Source of the DNA: Phanerochaete sordida | Lineage: Eukaryota > Basidiomycota > Agaricomycetes > Polyporales > Phanerochaetaceae | Direction of reading: 5' to 3' | DNA: 64,000 bases | Assembly: GCA_019973155.2 (NCBI GenBank) | Contig: BPQB01000005.1 | Location: forward strand, 868,001-932,000 | Shown here: in pieces, positions 14,648 through 30,900 of the stretch | Numbering within the stretch: the stretch's first letter is position 1 | How the letters are laid out: each line of letters begins with the position of its first letter | The notes under the pieces: model-generated | What the model saw: the letters and a program-made list of their open reading frames with translations, nothing else | Told to the model about the DNA's origin: nothing | Database searches by the model: none | Made by a program: the position numbers and the translations under genes

Positions 14648-15686
14648 CTACCGTAAAGCATACATTTTGACTTCGTACAAACCCTCGGGGAACCCCCGCT
14701 GAACCTGCTCGTAGACCAGAGTCAACCCGGCTGTCGCGAAGGCAGCTTTCCAAGCCATGTCTGACCTGTGCACGCGCATTACTTATTTCTCGATTGAATG
14801 ATTGAATGACAGAAAGCGCGCTCACCTTGTCAAACTGGAATCGTCTTCGTCGAACACAGTCCTTGCAGAGCCATCCGCATCGTCCGAGCAGAGGTTCTCC
14901 TTTACGACGATGAGGCTCTCCTTCGCGTCCCGCAATGCCTGCTTGCACCGCTTGAAGAACGCGATGAGATCTGCGTCGCTGAGATGGCCAAGACACCACT
15001 GGCACCATACAACGTCGAACTTGCTCTCGAGGTCGTCCTGCGCGGTGGTGTATCCGACGCGACCGACGAGCTTCGTGCCGCGTAGCGGGCTACACGGGTC
15101 GAACGCCTGAAGAGTGCCCTGCACGAGCGTGACGCTCCGGCTCCCGTCCGCGACGCCCTTCCAGCGCGAGCGCACACCGTCTTCGACGAGTGTGCCGTCC
15201 GCGCTCGCCTGCCCGCGCCGGTGCGCCTCCGCGATGAAGCCCTCGACGGGCTCGAGGAGCACGACGTCGTGGACGAGGTGCAGCAGCACGTCTGCGGTGA
15301 CGCGCCCCACGCCTGCACCGACGTCGACTGCGCGGGTGCGGTGCGCGCTGGAGGGCGGGCCGAGGGAGAGGGGGCGTACGGCGGAGGGGACGGTGCACAA
15401 ATCGGGGCGGAGGTGCATGAGGAACTGGCGGGAGCCGAGTGCGTCTACGCGCGGGAGAGACTGCGAAGTGTGATCGTCAGACGAATGCGAGCAGAGCATA
15501 CGCTGTGCATGGATAGGTGCTTACCCCATTGCCGAATCCACCTGCAAGACTCCCTGGTCACGACGCTGGGCTGGGAGGGCGGCGAGGGGGCTCACCAAGG
15601 ACGCCGTCGTAGCTGGCAGGCTGGGTGTTCCAGTATTCGATGCCATCCCGGACGTCGGGCTCAGGTAGTGCTGCCGCTGTGGACAT
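14648..15686 (-). CDS. TAE1: Alpha-N-methyltransferase NTM1 (X-Pro-Lys N-terminal methyltransferase)
   Basis: SAM-dependent enzyme that methylates the exposed alpha-amino group of proteins beginning X-Pro-Lys after Met removal, such as ribosomal proteins and RCC1. Starts MSTAAALPEPDVRDGIEYWN, continues TQPASYDGVLG across two introns, then the SAM motif VDVGAGVGRVTADVL, LLEPVEGFIAEA, the family signature VVWCQWCLGHLSDADLIAFF and the post-motif RDAKESLIVVKENLC, with FDEDDSSLTRSDMAWKAAF near the end. The last exon ends YEVKMYALR at TAG (14648-14650). An insert of about 20 residues follows the LVEDGVRSRWKGVADG region, longer than in human NTMT1. Divergent from CSM3. Confidence 0.88.
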
Positions 15687-15846
15687 CTTCTAAACAAGTG
15701 TGATAAAGACGGAGCAAGTGCAGCGGATGAGGCAGATGAGCGAGGAAGAATTACAGGCGCGTAGGCAAACAGCGTCAAACAACGCGGTAGAGACGCGCTC
15801 ATTGTGCGACACGCTTCTGTTCAACGACCTGCACGCCGCAGCAGAC

Positions 15847-17363
15847 ATGGACCTCGACGACATCTGGGACGAGCCCCTCACGCAGTCGCCGCCACGCTCG
15901 GCACCCGCAGGCGACGCCGCGACACCGCCGCCGCGCTCGCCCGCGAAGCGCCGCCGCACGAACCTCTTCCTCGCGTCCGACTCCGAGGGCGAGAACGACG
16001 CGTCCGCCAACCAGCCGACGTACCGCGCCCGCACGCCGAAGAAGGCCGTGCCGGACATTGATGCGCTCTTTGACGACATCGACGCCGATGTGGGCGGCGA
16101 GGACGATGACGGTCTCGGCGAGCTCGCGCCTGCGCTCGACCTCGACCAGCTTCGCCGGCAGGCTGAGGCGCGGCATGCGCGCGGCCCTCCTCTAACGCCA
16201 CATGAGATCCTCCCAAGCAGCTCGCCAACGCGTGAGCTTGAGGACGACGCGGAAGGAGGTGCGGGCGCAGGCGGGAAGAAGAAGGATGGAGACGGGCTGG
16301 AGGGAAACAAGAAGAGAAAGATCGCGAAGCTGGATGACGCACGACTCTTGGGCTCAAACGGTTTTCCTGCCCTCATCAAGCAGGCTAAGGGCTTCAAACC
16401 AAGAGGGAAGGGCCACGAGGTATGTCAGAGTTTTGTCCTGACGGCGTGTACTCACCCGTACCAGGTCTCCGACCTCAATAGGTTGCTCCAAATGTATCAG
16501 TTTTGGACGCACAAGATGTTTCCAAAAGCAGATTTTCACGATTCAGTACAACGTGTGGAGAAGTTGTGCCATTCGAAGCGCATGCATGTAAGTTTTGCGG
16601 TCTTTCTAGCACTGTATGCAGCTGACGGTATGCGTGCTCGTAGAGCGCATTGGGCGTCTGGCGAGACGAGTATCACGGCTTGCTCAACGGTCGCAAACCA
16701 GAAGAGCTCAACTCTGACGATGAGAGTGGTAGCGACAAAAACGACGAGGACGACGAGCCCCAGACGCAGCAGCGTGGGCCGTCGAGCGACGCTGAAGTAC
16801 CCGGGCCGGAAGAGGCGCGTTCGTCGAGTCCAGCACTCCGCCCTCCTTCATCAGCATCCGAGTTCACACCCGCGCCGGACGACGATTTTGATGTTGACGC
16901 TATCCTCCGAGAAGAGGCAGAAGCACGCAAGGCTGCTGCCGCTTCGAAGAGCACACCTTCTGGCGCAGCAGTGACTAGCGCGTCTACTCAGGCGGCCTCT
17001 CAAGCTCGACCGCCTGTTGGTATGGACGACGACGACGACCAGGCGATGTGGGACGAGCTGCATGCGTTCGAAGAAGACACGTTTCCACCTGCGAAGCCCT
17101 CCAACCCTCCTGCGTCTACACGCACAGCTGATGAAGACATGGATATGGACATGGACGAGGACGTGTGGGACGTTGTCCGCGAGATGGAGCAGGAGCAGGC
17201 GGCCGCAGTCCAACCGAAGCCGAGTACTGCCCCTGCGCTCCCAGCTGTACCCGCTCCCTCTGAGGCCGATACCTCGTCGGCATCCGTCGCGGAGGCACGC
17301 GCTGAACAGCCGGGCCACCCCGCGGCCACCAATGACGAGGGATGGGACGAGATGTACGAGTAG
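15847..17363 (+). CDS. CSM3: Replication fork protection complex subunit Csm3/Swi3 (TIPIN homologue)
   Basis: Partner of Tof1/Swi1; stabilises stalled forks and supports the S-phase checkpoint. The Swi3 domain is clear at about 16335-16590 (ARLLGSNGFPALIKQAKGFK, then DLNRLLQMYQFWTHKMFPKA and FHDSVQRVEKLC). The flanks are long, acidic and low in complexity: an N-terminal MDLDDIWDEPLTQSPPRS, a KRRR nuclear signal, and a C-terminal half rich in Asp/Glu/Ser/Pro ending NDEGWDEMYE. Start choice is uncertain: the frame stays open to ATGs at 15727 and 15736, but these would leave 40 bp to NTM1, and MDLDDIWDEP resembles the usual start. Two introns in the Swi3 region. The tRNA-derived array begins 57 bp after the stop. 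Confidence 0.85.
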
Positions 17364-17420
17364 ACCACGGCCGACTTCCGTACGATATACCCGCTTTCGC
17401 GATCAAGGGGCGGTGGCAGG

Positions 17421-17997
17421 TGCCCCAGTGAGGCTCGAACTCTCAGAACGCGCTAGGTCTGGCATGGGATCTGCCCCAGTGGGGCTCGAACACAGTAAAC
17501 GCGCTTCTGGGGAGGAAAGTGCTCCAGTGAGGCTCGAACAGGATGAGCTGAAAGCACTTCAGTGGGAGTCCTGCGCGGGAAGTGCCCCAGTGAGGCTCGA
17601 ACTCCCAGAACGCACTAGGACTGGCATGGGATCTGCTCCAGTGGGGCTCGAACACAGTGAACGCACTTCTTGGGTTAGGCCTAGGGTGGAAACTGCTCCA
17701 GTGAGGCTCGAACTCTCAGAACGCACTAGAACGGGCATGAGATCTGCCCCAGTGGGGCTCGAACACAGTTGATGCACTTCTCGGTAGGCTTGGGGTGAAA
17801 ACTGCTCCAGTGAGGCTCGAACAGGATGAGCTGAAAGCACTTCAGTGGCCTGCGCGGGAAGTGCCCCAGTGAGGCTCGAACTCTCAGAACGCACTATAAC
17901 TGGCATGGGATCTGCCCCAGTGGGGCTCGAACACAGTAAACACGCTTCTTGGTAGGCCTGGGGTACCGTGGAAAGTGCTCCAGTGAGGCTCGAACTC
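17421..17997. repeat. Tandem array of 11 tRNA-Asn 3'-half (T-arm/B-box) units
   Basis: Eleven units begin at 17421, 17472, 17520, 17583, 17634, 17694, 17745, 17803, 17862, 17913 and 17976. Each opens with the core TG(C/T)CCCAGTG(A/G)GGCTCGAAC or its CTCCAG variant. That core is the reverse complement of the acceptor strand plus T-arm of the tRNA-Asn gene at 19848-19939. Spacers after the core fall into three classes, A (ends near GGCATGGGATC), B (ACAGTAAACGC type) and C (AGGATGAGCTG type), in the order ABCAB-ABCAB-A. So a five-unit higher-order repeat of 273 and 282 bp is present twice plus one unit. All 11 keep GTTCGAGCC, a Pol III B-box core, on the minus strand. No 5' tRNA half (A box) is present, so the units cannot encode tRNAs. 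Confidence 0.92.
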
Positions 17998-19579
17998 CCA
18001 GAGCCGTACATCGGTCTGGTTTCGCGAGCCCCAGTTGCCTTTGCTTGCCTCTCCATTATCTCAGTTTAGGGCTCCAGCCATATAGTGAGTACGTAGGCTG
18101 CATGAGTGTCCTAGTAGTATTCGAGCTTGTGTATTGAAGTCGTTGTCGGTCCAAAGGCTCCAAATCGCAACCTCGGCTTCATCCCCGGGAGCCTTTCAAG
18201 TTAAGACTTCACTAGTGTAAATGGAGACGCCGAAGCCTTCTCTTCGAACTATCATCTGCGGATGGTGAATCATGATAAGTATAATGAGGTATGAGGTTAT
18301 GCTCTTACACGACGTATAGCTTGCCTGGCTATGTAGCGCACACAGATCCCACTAGGTCTTGCGCGCAGAGCACCTCTGTCGCTTACGATCTGGAGAGTCG
18401 ACGAGTCGACACGAGTCTAAAGGCTCTCTACCGGTCCCACTGGCACACAGCGAATCTACCAAAACTGGTGGCATAGACGGTGAGTTCGAAAAAGGCCGTA
18501 CTTATTCTCAATAGCACAGCGGCCGCACTAGTTCTCCTCGACCTCAGAGGGTAGATTGTGACTGAATCTCGTGCTGGCCGGAGCTCCTCCCTGAGCAGAC
18601 GTCATTGCCAATGTGTCTGCTGGCATCGGACTACTAAGGTGCGTATCGTCATTGGAGCCTCTGTGGCTTTCCGCTGATGTGTCGGGCAGAACGCAGCACG
18701 CCCGCGAACCGCGATTGACGGACGGCGGCCCGCTATCTTGGCGTCGCAAAGCTCGCAGGACGCTGATTAGCGAGAACTGAGGTCAGAGATGCTCGACGCA
18801 GCGGTGACGAACGATGGGCCGACACTAGCATTACACGAACGGCGCGCCAGGGACTCCGTGCCATGCGCGGCGGTTAGCTAGAGACCGCAGAAAATCGAGC
18901 TAGCGTCCAGCCGATGCGCGGGATCGTGGTTCCTCGACTCGCGGCGCGTGCTCAGCTCCAGCGACGTGCGAAAGGTCTGCGCTGCACTTACAAGGGGTGA
19001 TCTACTAATATCAGGGCAAACTTGAATCGACTCGGCGAGCGCGGTGTCCCCATCCAGGCGAACAACAGGCTGACATGGGTAAATGATCATGGACATCATA
19101 CTTCTGCTGAAGCTGTACAGTATGAGAACAACGTGGAATCAAGTTTTGAACTATGGGCTGCCCTGGGATGTGCACAGTACGCTGCTCGTGCGCAGCTCGC
19201 GCACGGCCGGCGGTACATCCGCTGCTGGCCGCTGGCCGCCCGCTGACATACATCGGACTCTCGACGTGTGCATGCACATCTTCGTGTACGTCGTTACCTT
19301 CGTCCTACTATCGCGCCCTCTCTGTCTAAGCACTCTACGTGCACTTGTTCTTCACTGCAGACGCTGTCACAGAGCTCGAGGCCCTGAGCACGCTTGGACT
19401 GCGTGAGCGCAACAGCCTCACAGATGGTCAGCTGGGGTGCAGACCACCTGAGGTATGCGCAGACACACGACGTCGACTTTCGGGGTCGAACACACGTTCA
19501 CCGTGTGCATTCCCCGGACCTCTACTTGTCACTACTGGAGATTTAAACACGATCCAGAGCCTAATCCTCGGAGTTGTAT
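17998..19579. other. Gene-poor island A, left part
   Basis: No convincing protein gene on either strand: frames are short and lack conserved motifs or consistent splice patterns. It holds a degraded copy of the short dispersed repeat at about 18067-18094 and a doubled GAGTCGAC motif near 18396-18415. Base composition is less GC-rich than the flanking genes. Confidence 0.5.
18067..18094 (-). repeat. Degraded copy of the GGAGCC-end short dispersed repeat
   Basis: The reverse complement reads ACTCACTATATGGCTGGAGCC then CTA. It matches the 3' end of the copy ending at 41852 (ACTCACTATACGGTTGGAGCC then TTA) apart from three transitions. Only the end of the element is recognisable. It lies 70 bp beyond the tRNA-derived array. 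Confidence 0.55.
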
Positions 19580-19680
19580 AAAACTACATGTGTACAATGT
19601 GTATAACTGTATGTGTACTATATACTGTCAGTGTACAAAAAAGTTCAACATGTATACTATACTATACAGTTGGAGCCTTA
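19580..19680 (+). repeat. Short dispersed repeat, copy 1
   Basis: A 101-bp A/T-rich element running from AAAACTACATGTGTAC to CAGTTGGAGCCTTA, with several internal GTGTAC/GTATAC steps. The same two ends bound the copy at 40382-40486 and, in diverged form, the copy at 41726-41852. The ends are weakly inverted (TAAAACTACA against TAAGGCTCCA), which would fit a MITE, but no clear target-site duplication is seen. The GGAGCCTTA end points at the 3' end of the tRNA-Asn gene, 167 bp away. Confidence 0.8.
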
Positions 19681-19838
19681 CCGGAGTCACATCTACTCCA
19701 GTACTGTGTATCGATCTGGTATCGTAGTTCTCAGCGACATATGCTTCCTTATCCACCGCTACCAGTAGTAAAACAATAACTCCCATAGACTGTATACGGT
19801 GTACACTACACCCCAAGGGTCATATATGCACAGATAGC

Positions 19839-19843
19839 AAAAA
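19839..19843 (-). terminator. Pol III terminator of tRNA-Asn
   Basis: Run of five T on the tRNA sense strand, four bases after the discriminator base (preceded by TTTC). Confidence 0.75.
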
Positions 19844-19847
19844 GAAA

Positions 19848-19939
19848 CTGCCCCAGTGAGGCTCGAACTCACGACCTTCCGATGAAATGATCATGTGATC
19901 TTAACAGTCGGACGCTGTAACCAACTCAGCCATGGGGCA
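19848..19939 (-). tRNA. tRNA-Asn (anticodon GUU) with an 18-nt intron
   Basis: Folds as a full cloverleaf: acceptor TGCCCCA/TGGGGCA, D-stem GCTG/CAGC, anticodon stem TCCGA/TCGGA, loop CTGTTA with anticodon GTT, T-stem GTGAG/CTCAC with loop TTCGAGC, discriminator G. The insert of about 18 nt (containing GATCACATGATC) sits between positions 37 and 38, the canonical eukaryotic tRNA intron site. The overall sequence resembles yeast tRNA-Asn. The first pair is T1:A72 rather than the common G:C, which is unusual. Its T-arm/acceptor segment is identical to the core of the A-type units in the array about 1.9 kb to the left. Confidence 0.9.
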
Positions 19940-20781
19940 TATATTCGTACCGAAGCGGATATGGATATGAACGTCCCTGCGTGTAGGCGTACGCCACGAA
20001 GTCCTAGCCTTCTGTTTTGGGGCGTGTTGGTTAAACACAATTGTGAGCATTAAACAGTACTGTATAAGATGTCTCATCAGCGTCCTTCTGGTACTCACGT
20101 CTCTACACCCTAACTGCTGTGATCTTAGCCTGATTTTGGTGGCCGCAACTCTTCCATCCAGATGTAACGGTCCATAGTCTGACTTCTGAAGATCGCGGGC
20201 AGGACTCGGAGCAATGGGCAAAGCTCATGCATGTATACTTTCATCGAAGATTGAGAAGATAAAGTCCAAAAAAATTGCCGACAACGTCGTACATTATGTC
20301 GCTGCCCTTAAGATCCGTCTTACTATCACTATGACGAGTCTTCCAAGTGTCTTTCAGTTGTGTCGCGTCGTGGGATAGTGTGATCGTCCTCAGAAGGAAG
20401 CAGCATGAATTACCTGCAAACCAGAGCTTACGTTTGGACAAGGCCATCACCTGGGGAACTTCATTGCTCGGACTGCTGTTTCGGAGTCTGCCATGCTCGC
20501 GCGACCAACGCGCGACTTCCTGTCGCGAACTTCCCGTCTGAACTAAATTCCGCCCCTAAGTCTGCAAGCACTAAATTTCACATAAAAATTGAAGTGAATG
20601 AACAGTGTGTGGCCGTTGAGAGGCAGCTGGTCCCGGTCAGACAGGGCCGCTTTGCAGGCCCCAGCAGCGGCCAGACGCGCTGCCGCCTGATGGCGGTACG
20701 TCACAAGCGCTCTCGCTCCGACTTGCTCGCGCACCCCGACCAGGACCAAGTCATTCTTTCTTATCTGCCGCGCAACCCGCC
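19940..20781. other. Gene-poor island A, right part, and VMA8 upstream region
   Basis: No gene recognised. The right end must contain the VMA8 promoter; no TATA box is obvious. Confidence 0.5.
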
Positions 20782-21743
20782 ATGTCCGGCACAGGAGCAC
20801 GAGAGAATGTCTTTCCGACGCGTATGGCGCTGACGAACATCAAGCTGCGGCTCAAGGGCGCGCAGACGGGGCACTCGCTCCTCGCAAAGAAGCGGGACGC
20901 ACTGACGACCCGCTTCAGGGCCATCCTGCGCAAAGTCGACGAGGTACCCGCCTGCGCTGGCCAATGCGAGACTTCTTGGCTCACGAACGTTTTTGTGATG
21001 GCAGGCAAAGCGCAAGATGGGCCGAGTGATGCAGCTCGCGTCGTTTTCCCTGGCTGAAGTCACGTACGCGACGGGCGACATCTCGTACCTGGTGCAGGAG
21101 CAGGCAAAGTCTGCCTCGTTCCGGGTCAAGGCGAAGCAAGAGAACGTGTCTGGTGTTGTGCTACCCGCCTTCGAGGTCGACAGGGTACCTGGCTCAGGTG
21201 CGCAGTTATCTCGCCATCATCGGTAGACATGCTGATGACGCTCCTGGTGCACTACCTAGATTTCAACCTGACTGGTCTTGGTCGTGGCGGTCAGCAAGTG
21301 TTGCGATCGAAGGAGGTCTATGCCAAAGCTGTCGAGACGCTAGTCGAACTCGCGTCGTTGCAGACCGCGTTCATGATCCTCGATGAAGTCATCCGAGCCA
21401 CGAATCGCCGCGTAAATGCTATCGAACACGTCGTAATCCCAAGGCTCGAGAACACTATCAAATATATCAACAGCGAGCTGGACGAGATGGACAGAGAAGA
21501 GTTCTTCCGGTACGTCGCAAGCGTTTCGAGAGTGCTGTACCGCTCACCCTTCGTGGCAGGCTGAAGAAGATCCAGGGCAAGAAGAAGCGCGACGCTGGCA
21601 AGGCAGATGCCGAGAAGGAAGCACAAGACGCAAGAAACTATGCGCAGCAGGGTGCTGGCACAGTTCCCCAAGCCGAAGAAGTCGCAGAAACAGGGGAGAG
21701 TAGCGACCTCCTCGGCACCAAGGACGAGGATGTTATTTTCTGA
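20782..21743 (+). CDS. VMA8: V-type H+-ATPase V1 subunit D
   Basis: Central-stalk rotor subunit of the vacuolar proton pump. The N-terminus [20 protein letters not shown] and the following [20 protein letters not shown] are diagnostic, followed by long alpha-helices ([77 protein letters not shown]). It ends with a variable acidic tail, [11 protein letters not shown] and TGA at 21741-21743. Three short introns; the one after VDRVPGS joins to [15 protein letters not shown]. Normal length for the family (about 260 residues). Convergent with RPL26, 299 bp apart. Confidence 0.95.
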
Positions 21744-22042
21744 TTCGTTCAGTGTTTTCTTACCGCACATGAATGTAATGTATCCGGACAGCAGCATCAA
21801 TCCATATACCACTCTGCACATTGCGACCAATAATACATTGTGGAATGACAGAGCGGAATAGTGTCGTGTAACGACGGAAACCACGAGCCTCACCTGAGCA
21901 AGTCGTGGAAGAAGGCGGCGGGTGGCCTCATGGAGCATATCATGTGCGTGGGGTGCGCATACATACATGGATCGTTTTGGGAGTGCAATACGATAGCCAG
22001 CGAGAGAGAGCACGGGAAGACCAAAAGAAGAAGGGGAGGTGT

Positions 22043-22838
22043 TTACTGCCATGTCATCAATTTTCAGAGCGAACGCCAACTGCATGAATTTACTCACGTC
22101 GACCATCTCGACATCAGCACCGGCAGCCTCCTTCTTGCGGTCCTTGCGGTCGAGGATTGCCCGCCTAAGCAGATTTTAGAACGCCAATTTCGAAGTGCAA
22201 CTTATGAAGCAAAGCGCACCTGTCCTTGTCGAGCTTGATGGTGGTGATAACGACGTTCGAGGGGTGGATGCCAATGGGTACCGACGAGCCGTTCGACTTG
22301 TCGCGCTGGACACGCTCGACGTGGATCACCCACTTCTTGCGGTACACCTGAGTGACCTTGCCCTCCCGGCCCTTGTACTTGCCCCGGACGATCCGAACCT
22401 CGTCATCCTTGCGGATTGGTAGCGAGCGAGTCTATATAGTCCAGACGCACGGACAGGGAGGATTCGATGAGAGGGGCTGTTTCCGCATAAATGAAACTGT
22501 CAAACGTACGTTGTGCTTGCCACGGAGCTCCTTGGAAAGAGCGGAGGACATGATCTTGCGGCGGACGGAGGAGGGCGCCGCGAAGTGCGCCTTGCGCGAC
22601 TTGCGGCGAGAGGAGGAGACGTCTGTAGAGTGTCAAACCAAGCGAGAAGACATACGTTCGTCAGCATTTCGTCCATGAAACGAGCTCCCCAAGCACTGAT
22701 CAAATCCGCCTCATCCCGCCAGTCTCATCCACATCCACCTTCCTCCGCGACCATCCAGCCTCTTCCACCCCTCTAAACGCACGGATTTGACAGAATAGCA
22801 GCAGGACAGCATAACTAACCCGGGTTGAGCTTGGCCAT
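22043..22838 (-). CDS. RPL26: 60S ribosomal protein L26 (uL24)
   Basis: Large-subunit protein near the exit tunnel, with a KOW motif. Reads [20 protein letters not shown], then [20 protein letters not shown], the KOW block [20 protein letters not shown], and [20 protein letters not shown] with [10 protein letters not shown]. The last coding residues are GADVEMVD. The codon after GAC is not a stop; an intron of about 51 nt (GTGAGT ... GGCAG) intervenes and the stop codon TAA stands alone at 22043-22045 at the start of the last exon. Several introns, as usual for fungal ribosomal protein genes. Divergent from FRG1. Confidence 0.93.
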
Positions 22839-22990
22839 CAGGGCGATTCCGTCGTTCTTGAGGGTCTTGAGGATGTCCGGGACTCGATGGGCACAAATGT
22901 GGGATGCTCGGCGGTGAAGACAAGCGCCCAAAGCCGAGTAAGCGCTAGGGTTAGGTTTAGGTCGTTCATCTACCCCCACTTCCTCTGCAC
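22839..22990. promoter_or_regulatory. Divergent RPL26/FRG1 promoter with telo-box
   Basis: A 152-bp shared promoter. TAGGGTTAGGTTTAGG at 22946-22961 is three telomere-like steps. TTAGGG-type motifs in ribosomal protein promoters are bound by Tbf1-family Myb factors in several fungi. The match is seen directly; the binding is inferred. Confidence 0.6.
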
Positions 22991-24012
22991 ATGTCTGAAG
23001 ACAAGGTCCGTCCCTCGAAGCTCAAGTTCAAAGGGGAAAAGACCAAGAAGAAGCGCAAGCGTGAGCCTGACGAAGAGGGCGAAAGCACGAGTCGCCGCCG
23101 TCGCAGAGATGAAGATGACGATGCTCCGGAGACATGGGTCCTCCCAGAGGAAGCCAACGACATACGGGGTCCGACGTTCGTCATTCATCCCTCAGACCCT
23201 TCACCTATATGTATCACCTACGACACAACGCGCGGACGTATTGTCCTACAGTCGCTAGACAAGGAGAAGACAGAGGACGACCAGGAACCGCCGAAATTGC
23301 TGGACCGCATCCCTACCGAAGTCTCGCAGGTCTGGGTCATCACTCGTGTAGCCGGGTCACCAACAATCAATCTGCGCACCGGCGTCGGCGAGGGCAAGTT
23401 TTTGTCCTGCGATAAACACGGTATCGTGTCCGCAGACAGAGAAGCCCGGGGACCGCAAGAAGAATGGACTCCTGTAGTATTCCCAGACGGCATGGTCGCT
23501 TTCCAGAACATCTACGAGAAGTATCTTGCTGTCGATGAGGTTGCTGGTGGGCAGCTTGCTCTACGAGGAGATAGCGAGGAAGTCGGATTTAGAGAAAGGT
23601 TCTGGGTCAAGATACAGAGCAAGTACAAGAAGGAAGCGCACGCCGAGGAGAGGAAGAGGAAAGAAGGGATGTCGATAGATGACAATCTAGACGAAGCTTC
23701 AGCGAAGTACGTGGCGCGTTCCCTAGTTGCAACACCTACAGCTGACACTGCTCGCCGCTCCATAGCAAGACATTCCAGGCATGGGGCGCTGGCAGATCTA
23801 TCTTGTCTACCGATGACAAGAAAGAGGTACGTGCCACAGGGATCACACTTAAGTCGGTATTAACCTCGTCGTACACAGCTCAAGAAGGCGAAGAAGGAAG
23901 GACGACTCGCCGAAGCTCTACTTGATCGTCGTGCGAAGCTGAAAAGGTATGCTGTCCCGTCGCGCTATAGCCGTCTCCTCTGACATCTCCAAACAGCGAC
24001 AGGTTCTGCTAG
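22991..24012 (+). CDS. FRG1: FRG1-like protein (beta-trefoil, actin-bundling/RNA-linked)
   Basis: Homologue of human FRG1, a nuclear/nucleolar protein linked to splicing and F-actin. The N-terminus is Lys/Arg-rich (KLKFKGEKTKKKRKREP; RRRRRDEDDD), giving nuclear signals. The fascin-like beta-trefoil follows, with family blocks LRTGVGEGKFLSCDKHGIVS, GPQEEWTPVVFPDGMVAFQN and YEKYLAVDE. The basic tail after two introns contains KTFQAWGAGRSILS and KKELKKAKKEGRLAEALLDR, and the last intron adds SDRFC and TAG at 24010-24012. Complete in length (about 275 residues). Confidence 0.9.
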
Positions 24013-27996: not shown

Positions 27997-30900
27997 TTAT
28001 GAAGGCGGGAAGGCCTTCAAGTGGGCAGCAGGAGGCGCATGTTGTACGAAAGGCGACTGTCGTGCCTGCACTGTGTTCAGAGCGTTCGTGGTGACCGACG
28101 GCGAAGGCACACCGTTCGCGGCGCGTCCGTTATTGGGAGGGGGCATGGGCGACAGGACGACGGGGCTGGTAGCTGGGGCTGGCGAATGGGAATGAGTTTG
28201 GGCGATTGGGTCAGGCGCATGGGCAGACGAAGGTAGGTGACCGGGAGTGTGCTGGTGGGGAGGAGCTGGTTGGTGGGCGGGAACTGGTAGGCGGGAAGGC
28301 GCAAGCTGTTGGGCTGGTGCAGGCTGATGGGCAGGTGCAGGCTGATGGGCAAGACCAAGTTGGTGGACAGAACTAGGCTGTTGGGCTGGGACTGCCTCAG
28401 GCGCATACGCATGAGGCTGAGCAGGCACAGCGGCCGCCTGTTGCGTCTGGGCAGCAACCGATTGGTTCATCCAGTTGTAGATGACTTGCACCGTCTGGAA
28501 CGTAAGCTGCAGCTTGCTCATGAGGTTCTGCGCGACCTGCGCGTTCTGAATCTTGATCGTCTGCTGCACCTCGTCGTGCATTTCCTGCAATGGCCCCCGA
28601 ACGTCGTTTCGTATGCTTTCTAGCACCATTGGCGTGATGAGTTCTGCGATCGACTGAAGATCTGGTATTTGCGGGGGAACTGGCGGTGCCGGTGGAGGAG
28701 CTGGAGGAGGCGATGCAGGGCGAGCTATGTACGCTTGGAGGGCGGCATTTAGGGCATCCATCTCGGATTTGTACGTGTGCATAGCTTCGGTATTTTCTTC
28801 AAGCCGTCTCTCCATCTTTTTACAAAGGTTAGCATCAGTGGGCTCAGACATAACCAATGAAGTCGTCTCACCTCGACAACTCGCGTTTTCAGCTCTTCAT
28901 TCTCCTTGGTCAGCCTCCCGACCTCGGTTGCCTGAGACCGCGACTGCTGGATTACCTGTACGATTTCTTCAACGATCTCGGTGATCTCTTTGCCTACTCT
29001 TTGAGCCTCCTGCTCGACATCCTGTAAGCGTTGCAGTAGCGTGCGAGGCTTCTGCGGCGCTCCCTCGCCCTCAGCTTGCTCGGAGCTTGCGCCCTGGGGC
29101 TGGTCAACGTCCATGCTCTCCTCCGGAGCCGTGTCCACGCCACCGAAGCTCATCTTTTGGAAACGCTCCTCATTACGACGATCGAGCTCGTCAATAACGT
29201 CTGAGTTGCACTGGACCATGCTGTTTTCTAGATCAGCCACGCGATCGTCGAGGGCATAGAGGCGGTCCATGATCTCATCAACCTCCTGCGGAAGCACCGC
29301 AGGAGAGTGAGAGGCGGGCAGGGCAGGGTCAGGCGTAGGAACGGAGGGCGCTGGGGCAGCGGACGAAGTGGTGAGCGTCGATGAACGAGCGATCGAGGTG
29401 GTGTCCTCAACTCCCGCATTCGAGGTCCTTCGCCTCTTGGTCGGCCGCTTGTCGCCGTCGGTCGTCTGGTCGTCTCCTGATAGACGGGCCCCCGACGCTG
29501 AGGAGGACGCGCTTCGTACCTCGCCCATCATCTTGTACAGCTCGGAGACGCCATCGCGTACCTGCCATACCACAGTCCTGAGCTCTGTGAACCGCTCCTC
29601 TGCTTCGGTCTCCTTGGCGTCCCAGGTGGGCTCTTTCTCCTTCCCTTTACCCTTCGGATCCGCCTTCGGCTCGCCTCTAAGTGCTTTCCAGCCGAGAGGA
29701 AGGTCCCAAAAGTCGTTGTCGACGAGCTTGTAGACACATGCGTTGAGCTCAGACTTCTTCTGCGCGACGCGCTCCTCTGCATCCTCGACTTTCTTGAACA
29801 TTTTCTCGCGAGCGGAGTCGGAAAGGTTTCCGTATTTCTCGGAATTGGCCAGGGCGCGGAGTGAGGACAGCTCACGCTCTGCAGCGATATGCTGCGTACG
29901 AGCTTGAACAGCTTCTGCGATTGCCCTATTCCGCGACGATGTCATGTCAGTATCCCAACTCGTACATCGAACGCGTTCACGTACTTGATACGATCCGCCC
30001 AAACCTGGATCTTCTCCGGGCGAGTTGCACTTGGCTCGTTCGTGTCAGTCTTTGCTGCTGCCTGCGTTGGCGTGGCCATAGGCGACGCGGCAGTGTTTGG
30101 GATAGGCGTGGTCCGGTCTTTGAGCTGTGGCGGGGGCGGCAACGCGCTGGGCGCTGGAGAACGCGTAGCTGCAGGGTTCGGGGGTGTCTGTGGCGCAAAT
30201 GAACTCGCCGCGCTGTCTTGCCTAGACCTCACGAACGTCGTTGCAGCACGAGAGCGGGGCTCAGACGGCGTGTTGGGGGGCAGGGACCGGTCCCCGTACC
30301 TGTCCCAGTCGCGGTCATGGTCGCGTTCTTTGTCGGCGTCGCGGTATGAACCTCGGTCGTTGTAGCTGCTCCTGGAGACCGATGCACTGGATGCCGTGCG
30401 TGACACGAGAGTGTCGTTGCGGCCGTAGCTAGAGGGTGCTATCGGCGTTGCGATTTGAGTCTGAGTTCTGGACATCGAGTCTGCCCGCGACAAAGACGGC
30501 GGGAGGGGTTTGTTGGGTAAGTCTGGGCGGGATGTCGCCCTCGGCGGGAGACCTTGAATGCCTGTCACAGGAGGTGCATTGAAGGAGCCCGACGCAGGCC
30601 GAGTGCGAGGGTCCCTGCTCGTGGCGTAGGACGGGGACATGCTGGGGCCTGTCTGAGTTGATGGTCCGGCACGAGGCGGCGATCTTGGCCTCTCCCGCTC
30701 GCGCTCTCTCTCTCGCGAGTCCCTCTCCCTCTCCCTCTCCCTCTCTCTGCCCCTTTCCCTTTCCCTCTCCCTTTCTCTTTCTCTTTCCTTCTCCTTCTCC
30801 CGCTCTCTCTCTTTTTCCCTCTCCTCCCTCTCTCTGTCTCTCTCGCGTACCCGCGCACGCTCTCTCTCTCGCACAGCCTCCCAGTCCTTGCCTCTGCTAG

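Follow-up and report, generated by a model that had tools for sequence, protein, structure and literature searches.

Minisatellites and satellites derived from tRNAs are a known class of repeat, and the ETC loci of budding yeast are known as single sites. Yeast TFIIIC is held chiefly by the B-box, with tau91 reading bases downstream of it, and this contact is conserved in eight ETC loci (PMC11724288). The IR-L element of S. pombe has five B-boxes within the span of a 327-bp deletion (PMC4502379). In C. elegans, CeRep3 repeats lie at extra-TFIIIC sites and are thought to be tRNA pseudogenes (PMC6950938).

The window analyzed here, a stretch of 64,000 nucleotides of Phanerochaete sordida DNA, contains eleven tandem copies of the 3′ end of a tRNA-Asn gene. 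It is the sole such array in the assembly at up to 3 mismatches, and its tRNA-matching core is conserved in preference to the spacers. The array resembles the ETC loci (PMC11724288) in having B-boxes (intact in 11/11 units) without a functional tRNA gene or A-box and in being conserved downstream of the B-box, but differs in having eleven putative sites in tandem. With the fission yeast IR-L and IR-R elements it shares a clustering of B-boxes without a tRNA gene, eleven of them within 577 bp, and the density at IR-L (five spanned by a 327-bp deletion) is like that of the array (PMC4502379). It differs from these elements in that no inverted-repeat partner, and no inverted pair flanking a domain, was found at up to 3 mismatches to the core and in that ordinary genes flank both sides. 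At the worm sites Box-A occurs together with Box-B, and the CeRep3 repeats are interspersed (PMC6950938), whereas the array has Box-B only and occupies one place.

Like tRNA-derived satellites and minisatellites, the array is tandem, shows higher-order repetition and contains a segment of tRNA origin, but here only 20 to 22 bp of 3′ end is recognizably tRNA, and this is the conserved part of the unit. No recognizable 5′ half or anticodon arm, as in a tRNA gene or pseudogene array, was found. A literature search covering titles and the beginnings of abstracts did not find a tandem array of tRNA 3′ ends.

We tentatively propose, at a likelihood just short of even, that the locus is a local minisatellite seeded by the tRNA-Asn 3′ end, in which eleven B-boxes lacking A-boxes probably constitute an ETC- or COC-like TFIIIC cluster. 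The tRNA-Asn 3′ end, from B-box to acceptor end, would have seeded a locus-specific minisatellite 1.85 kb away, whose growth, to judge from the order of the unit classes, would have proceeded several units at a time through unequal exchange or through slippage during replication. The resulting array would most likely dock several TFIIIC complexes with no tRNA being made and may act locally, between CSM3 and the tRNA gene, as a clamp or roadblock. An array of B-boxes as TFIIIC sites is plausible in view of the preferential conservation of the core, the lack of good A-boxes and the fact that the 5′ strand of the T-stem has been lost; we infer that TFIIIC may bind there, and a clamp, boundary or roadblock role is speculative. 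If TFIIIC binds, the locus would provide a dense, naturally occurring array of B-boxes unaccompanied by A-boxes and would show a route from tRNA genes to gene-free TFIIIC sites, and B-box copy number alone as the maker of a clamp or boundary would become directly testable.

Structure of the array

Eleven copies of TGCYCCAGTGRGGCTCGAAC are arranged head to tail in a single orientation (Table 1), as described in the first-pass annotation, which had reported same-orientation cores of about 20 bp; all eleven were confirmed. Each reads on the + strand with 0 mismatches to TGCYCCAGTGRGGCTCGAAC, the corresponding B-box strand being the minus strand, and the cores vary at position 4 (C/T) and position 11 (A/G) only. 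The presence of GTTCGAGCC in 11/11 cores indicates that the B-box is intact throughout. With the 16-mer CCAGTGRGGCTCGAAC and up to 3 mismatches, 14 matches were detected in the window (11 in the array, 1 in the tRNA gene and 2 others with 3 mismatches), compared with a mean of 1.53 over 100 shuffles, and 0/100 shuffles attained 14.

Core-to-core spacings along the array are 51, 48, 63, 51, 60, 51, 58, 59, 51 and 63 bp (range, 48 to 63 bp), and the units fall into classes in the order A B C A B A B C A B A. By class, these lengths are 51 bp for A1 to A4; 48, 60, 58 and 63 bp for B1 to B4; and 63 and 59 bp for C1 and C2. A second box, GAACGCAC, which follows the core, is common to the A and B units and less clear in the C units, and the units therefore look homologous. 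The class order points to growth by multi-unit duplication, and the array consists, as a minisatellite does, of head-to-tail units of 10 to 100 bp grown by duplication. By analogy with TFIIIC/tau91 and IR-L (PMC11724288 and PMC4502379), eleven B-boxes at 48- to 63-bp intervals would look like a multisite TFIIIC dock. A neutral minisatellite comes close to this TFIIIC cluster in likelihood. A tRNA-Asn 3′ fragment would have been copied nearby, through template switching or end repair, and multiplied by slippage without acquiring a function; we consider this a serious possibility, if somewhat below even, and a higher-order order of repeats such as that seen here is typical of unequal exchange.

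Table 1. Positions of the array, its cores and the neighboring genes in the window
Feature	Positions	Strand	Evidence or remarks
Whole array, 11 tRNA-Asn 3′-end cores	17421..17997	-	Core matches, shuffle control, class order
Core A1	17421..17442	-	22 bp identical to tRNA-Asn 3′ end
Core B1	17472..17491	-	
Core C1	17520..17539	-	
Core A2	17583..17604	-	22 bp identical to tRNA-Asn 3′ end
Core B2	17634..17653	-	
Core A3	17694..17715	-	Best match to window tRNA, 26/27 when the 5-bp flank at 17689-17693 (GAAAC) is included
Core B3	17745..17764	-	
Core C2	17803..17822	-	
Core A4	17862..17883	-	22 bp identical to tRNA-Asn 3′ end
Core B4	17913..17932	-	
Core A5	17976..17997	-	Last unit; sequence beyond core unlike other A units
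tRNA-Asn(GTT) gene, 18-nt intron, probable source of core	19848..19939	-	ARAGORN, Rfam
CSM3/Swi3 gene with introns	15847..17363	+	Swi3 domain, 7.4e-27

Origin of the core

The core corresponds to the 3′ end of tRNA-Asn(GTT), from the B-box to the acceptor end without CCA (GTTCGAGCCTCACTGGGGCA on the minus strand), the shared length being 20 bp in every copy and reaching 22 bp in A units. The core had originally been described as the acceptor and T-arm of a tRNA-Asn gene 1.9 kb away. The tRNA-Asn match and the nearby gene both stood, but the shared piece comprises the 3′ strand of the acceptor stem, the T-loop and the 3′ strand of the T-stem only, and the gap is 1,853 bp, the array being oriented like the gene and lying 3′ of it. 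In intron mode ARAGORN called this gene as Asn(GTT), and without introns miscalled it as Leu(AAG); the Rfam tRNA score was 56.3 bits. The core 20-mer also ends four more tRNA genes, on contigs C27, C42, C52 and C64, which in intron mode were called as Tyr, Asn, stop suppressor and Pyl, respectively. The non-Asn calls arose because ARAGORN puts the intron elsewhere, and as the exon sequence is near identical by eye in all five genes, all five were counted as tRNA-Asn.

The match of core A3 continues past the end of the tRNA gene in the window and into the flanking sequence there, a hint of local origin that also favors the neutral minisatellite. The tRNA-Asn genes of the window (contig C5) and of C27 look like duplicates, since flank is shared along with the gene (window 19768-19940 and L038:4745-4927; 80% over 183 bp, including ∼80 bp of downstream flank). 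An AT-rich stretch with repeated TGTACA/GTATAC-like words, identified by eye, adjoins the tRNA gene at 19540-19800 of the window.

Complementarity to a tRNA 3′ end is also a property of primer-binding sites, and the array could in principle be a remnant of those of LTR retrotransposons or a tRNA-derived SINE. Such an origin is extremely improbable: TGGC, the complement of discriminator plus CCA, precedes 0/11 copies, and the copies are not dispersed as for a SINE but occur, at up to 3 mismatches, as one array and one lone fragment.

Conservation of the core and loss of other tRNA features

In an alignment anchored by the core, which presumes homology among the spacers of classes A, B and C and in which the left edge of the core is the tRNA end and the right edge (20 bp) is where the copies stop agreeing, 18/20 core columns were invariant across the 11 units compared with 2/25 ungapped noncore columns (Fisher test, 3.5e-8). 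All 21 gapped columns were in spacers. These values agreed with the initial description of a core kept in all 11 copies while spacers differ. Within classes (A1 to A4, B1 to B4 and C1 to C2, with A5 omitted), variable sites amounted to 2/60 in the core and 16/98 in the rest (P = 0.018). When this test was split, P was 0.03 for the B units, and the C units had no variable site in core or spacer and differed by a 4-bp gap only. For the A units alone, the strictest test of constraint, the difference was nonsignificant with either a 20-bp (P = 0.13) or a 22-bp (P = 0.12) core, a result in keeping with a neutral minisatellite, for which conservation of the core would be attributable to chance, recency or conversion from tRNA-Asn. 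Against neutrality, core changes were fewer than spacer changes in the pooled test, and the difference was clearer between classes. The preferential conservation, and with it the apparent support for constraint, is real but modest.

The kept core extends to the exact tRNA end, beyond the need of a B-box alone, which counts against a TFIIIC dock; reading by tau91 past the B-box would account for a conserved core longer than the B-box (PMC11724288).

In all 11 units the best A-box nearby carried 3 mismatches, compared with 0 for the tRNA gene, and no tRNA was called in the array by ARAGORN or Rfam. No significant trace of the tRNA 5′ half was detected when scores were summed over the 11 units (P = 0.22, dinucleotide shuffles), consistent with the original claim that the array was made solely from the 3′ part of a tRNA. 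T-stem pairs numbered 4/5 in the five A units, 3/5 in the four B units and 1/5 in the two C units, and folding of the array was ordinary on both strands (z = −0.14 and −0.98; 20 shuffles each), suggesting that an RNA T-arm is not the conserved feature. A run of four T's on the minus strand was present once in the array, after core C2. In the region from 15000 to 24000, Rfam yielded the tRNA plus one match far under the gathering score and nothing else; a structured RNA was rejected on this result and the ordinary folding energies.

On these features, neither a gene transcribed by Pol III nor a T-arm in an RNA is likely to be the conserved entity. The portion retained in the units is the B-box and the bases downstream. 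As the T-stem 5′ strand, A-box and tRNA 5′ half have been lost, binding of TFIIIC to the DNA would fit better than an RNA product, and docking of TFIIIC without a tRNA appears most likely.

Derivation of the unit from a tRNA pseudogene with an internal deletion was also considered. A C-unit stretch matched the tRNA 5′ half at P = 0.002 with single-base shuffles (2/12 stretches), but under dinucleotide shuffles the 11 units together were not significant, as given above, and C1 alone was borderline (P = 0.02 and 0.05). For several units other tRNA segments scored equally high or higher, and this candidate was rejected as unproven.

Occurrence of the core in the assembly

The assembly searched comprised 40.8 Mb in 222 contigs, with the window at G000:C5:868001-932000. 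At up to 3 mismatches, the core was found in 27 places, namely, 11 in the array, 5 in tRNA-Asn genes, 1 in a lone fragment and 10 others; these ten all had 3 mismatches, and a reversed control gave 9. A genome search of this kind, as suggested in the first-pass annotation, recovered the array and, at up to 3 mismatches to the core, no second array in the 40.8 Mb. When the whole array was used as a DNA query, it matched itself only among the best candidates scored, and no inverted copy of the core was present within 17300-20000. The count of GTTCGAGCC in the assembly was 618, compared with 715 for a reversed control, so that the motif is not generally overrepresented. In 311 kb scanned (the window and other, partly overlapping loci, with loci repeating the array left out), three GTTCRANNC motifs lay within 200 bp of sequence in the array only. 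A sequence model of the unit, applied to the window and four 10-kb tRNA-Asn loci, detected the lone fragment, the five tRNA genes and the 11 units and nothing else. The failure to find a second array favors a neutral minisatellite; the single array, the ordinary genes on both sides, the failure to find a paired element and the lack of a general excess of GTTCGAGCC are counterpoints to a TFIIIC dock.

The lone tRNA-Asn 3′-end fragment (C64:43640-43659; L037:6641-6660) has 1 mismatch to the core. It shares the orientation of the C64 tRNA-Asn gene and sits 1.64 kb 3′ of it, the similarity to the 1.85 kb of the array being a coincidence noticed after the fact. Like some array units, the fragment has T for C in the core and AGGGTGG in its flank, and it is 89% identical to one unit over 35 bp. 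No homology between C64 and the array stretch was detected beyond the tRNA genes and this fragment, where ARAGORN made no tRNA call. A fragment at this distance from its tRNA gene suggests that such pieces arise locally and need no function to do so, in favor of a neutral minisatellite. Against this, tRNA-adjacent fragments are not general: a second 12-mer of the locus's own tRNA was found at 0/6 other tRNA loci (±3 kb) and 0/3 further tRNA-Asn loci (10 kb), unlike the C64 locus, which does hold one. A second 14-mer was found at 0/30 tRNA loci (±1.5 kb), a range too short to catch either the array or the C64 case, and with 3/30 loci on contig C222, which looks mitochondrial.

Under a fuller version of the TFIIIC-cluster proposal, which we regard as unlikely, the tRNA gene would have seeded a neighboring TFIIIC clamp, its fragment being copied ∼1.8 kb downstream and multiplied to eleven, with selection keeping only the tau-B footprint (B-box and downstream bases) while the spacers decay; the C64 fragment would represent the starting stage.

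The possibility that the lone fragment is a decayed full tRNA was rejected, as alignment to the tRNA 5′ part was not above shuffles (P = 0.78 and 0.99), and an A-box-like GGACTCAGTGG with 2 mismatches was matched by 16% of shuffles. An imperfect palindrome (75%) of ∼100 bp lies directly downstream of the C64 tRNA-Asn gene (L037:5078-5180).

Genomic neighborhood

The array had been placed just downstream of CSM3, and its first core indeed begins 57 bp beyond the TAG stop codon (17361-17363); the CSM3 start codon was picked by eye, and further in-frame ATGs are present upstream. This position, together with the complementarity of the + strand to the tRNA, raises the possibility of an RNA-level element in the CSM3 3′ UTR, antisense to the tRNA-Asn 3′ end, that is targeted by or soaks up an Argonaute-loaded 3′ tRNA fragment. 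Both core variants (C to T and A to G) retain G-U pairing with the tRNA, and the genome has 30 Piwi-domain (Argonaute) stretches, on contigs C1, C4, C8, C9, C18 and C127, some with in-frame stops. We nevertheless consider such an element very unlikely, because by our own estimate a wobble fit of two transitions would arise by chance in about one in four cases and because, with eleven near-perfect sites, silencing of CSM3 would be expected.

A protein-coding repeat is scarcely credible. One + frame is open to 17769, a minus frame is open from 17562 to 18065, and 8/10 spacings are divisible by 3, but the variable sites of A1 to A4 number 4, 1 and 3 at codon positions 1, 2 and 3 of this + frame, with no enrichment at the third. 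Stops and a shift occur in the + frame from B3 onward, and neither open frame had a Pfam match.

Beyond the array, no stop-to-stop frames of at least 130 codons were found between 18065 and 20384. An ATP-synt_D family gene, which we take to encode V-ATPase subunit D, is located at 21058-21561, and an FRG1-like gene is located at 22961-23860. Recognized genes thus restart within ∼3.7 kb of the CSM3 stop, so that the array lies in an intergenic gap of ∼3 kb rather than at the edge of a gene-poor island, and no sharp step in GC content was detected at the array. Of the two readings offered in the first-pass annotation, a tRNA-derived satellite was supported. A boundary separating densely packed genes from a gene-poor island was not, given these genes and a search with up to 3 mismatches to the core that turned up no further array.

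A scan of 17364-20000 for AATAAA-like signals gave TATAAA at 19577 only, and a promoter and terminator scan of bacterial type gave nothing useful. No chromo-shadow (HP1) matches were obtained here or in any control, and this negative therefore carries no information. The B-block_TFIIIC domain had one match (26.8 bits), the same family matching 4/14 prokaryote controls, and this shows only that the domain of the factor is present. Elsewhere in the window, a minus-strand open reading frame at 28752-30044 had a weak, below-cutoff match to CENP-H (E = 0.0013).
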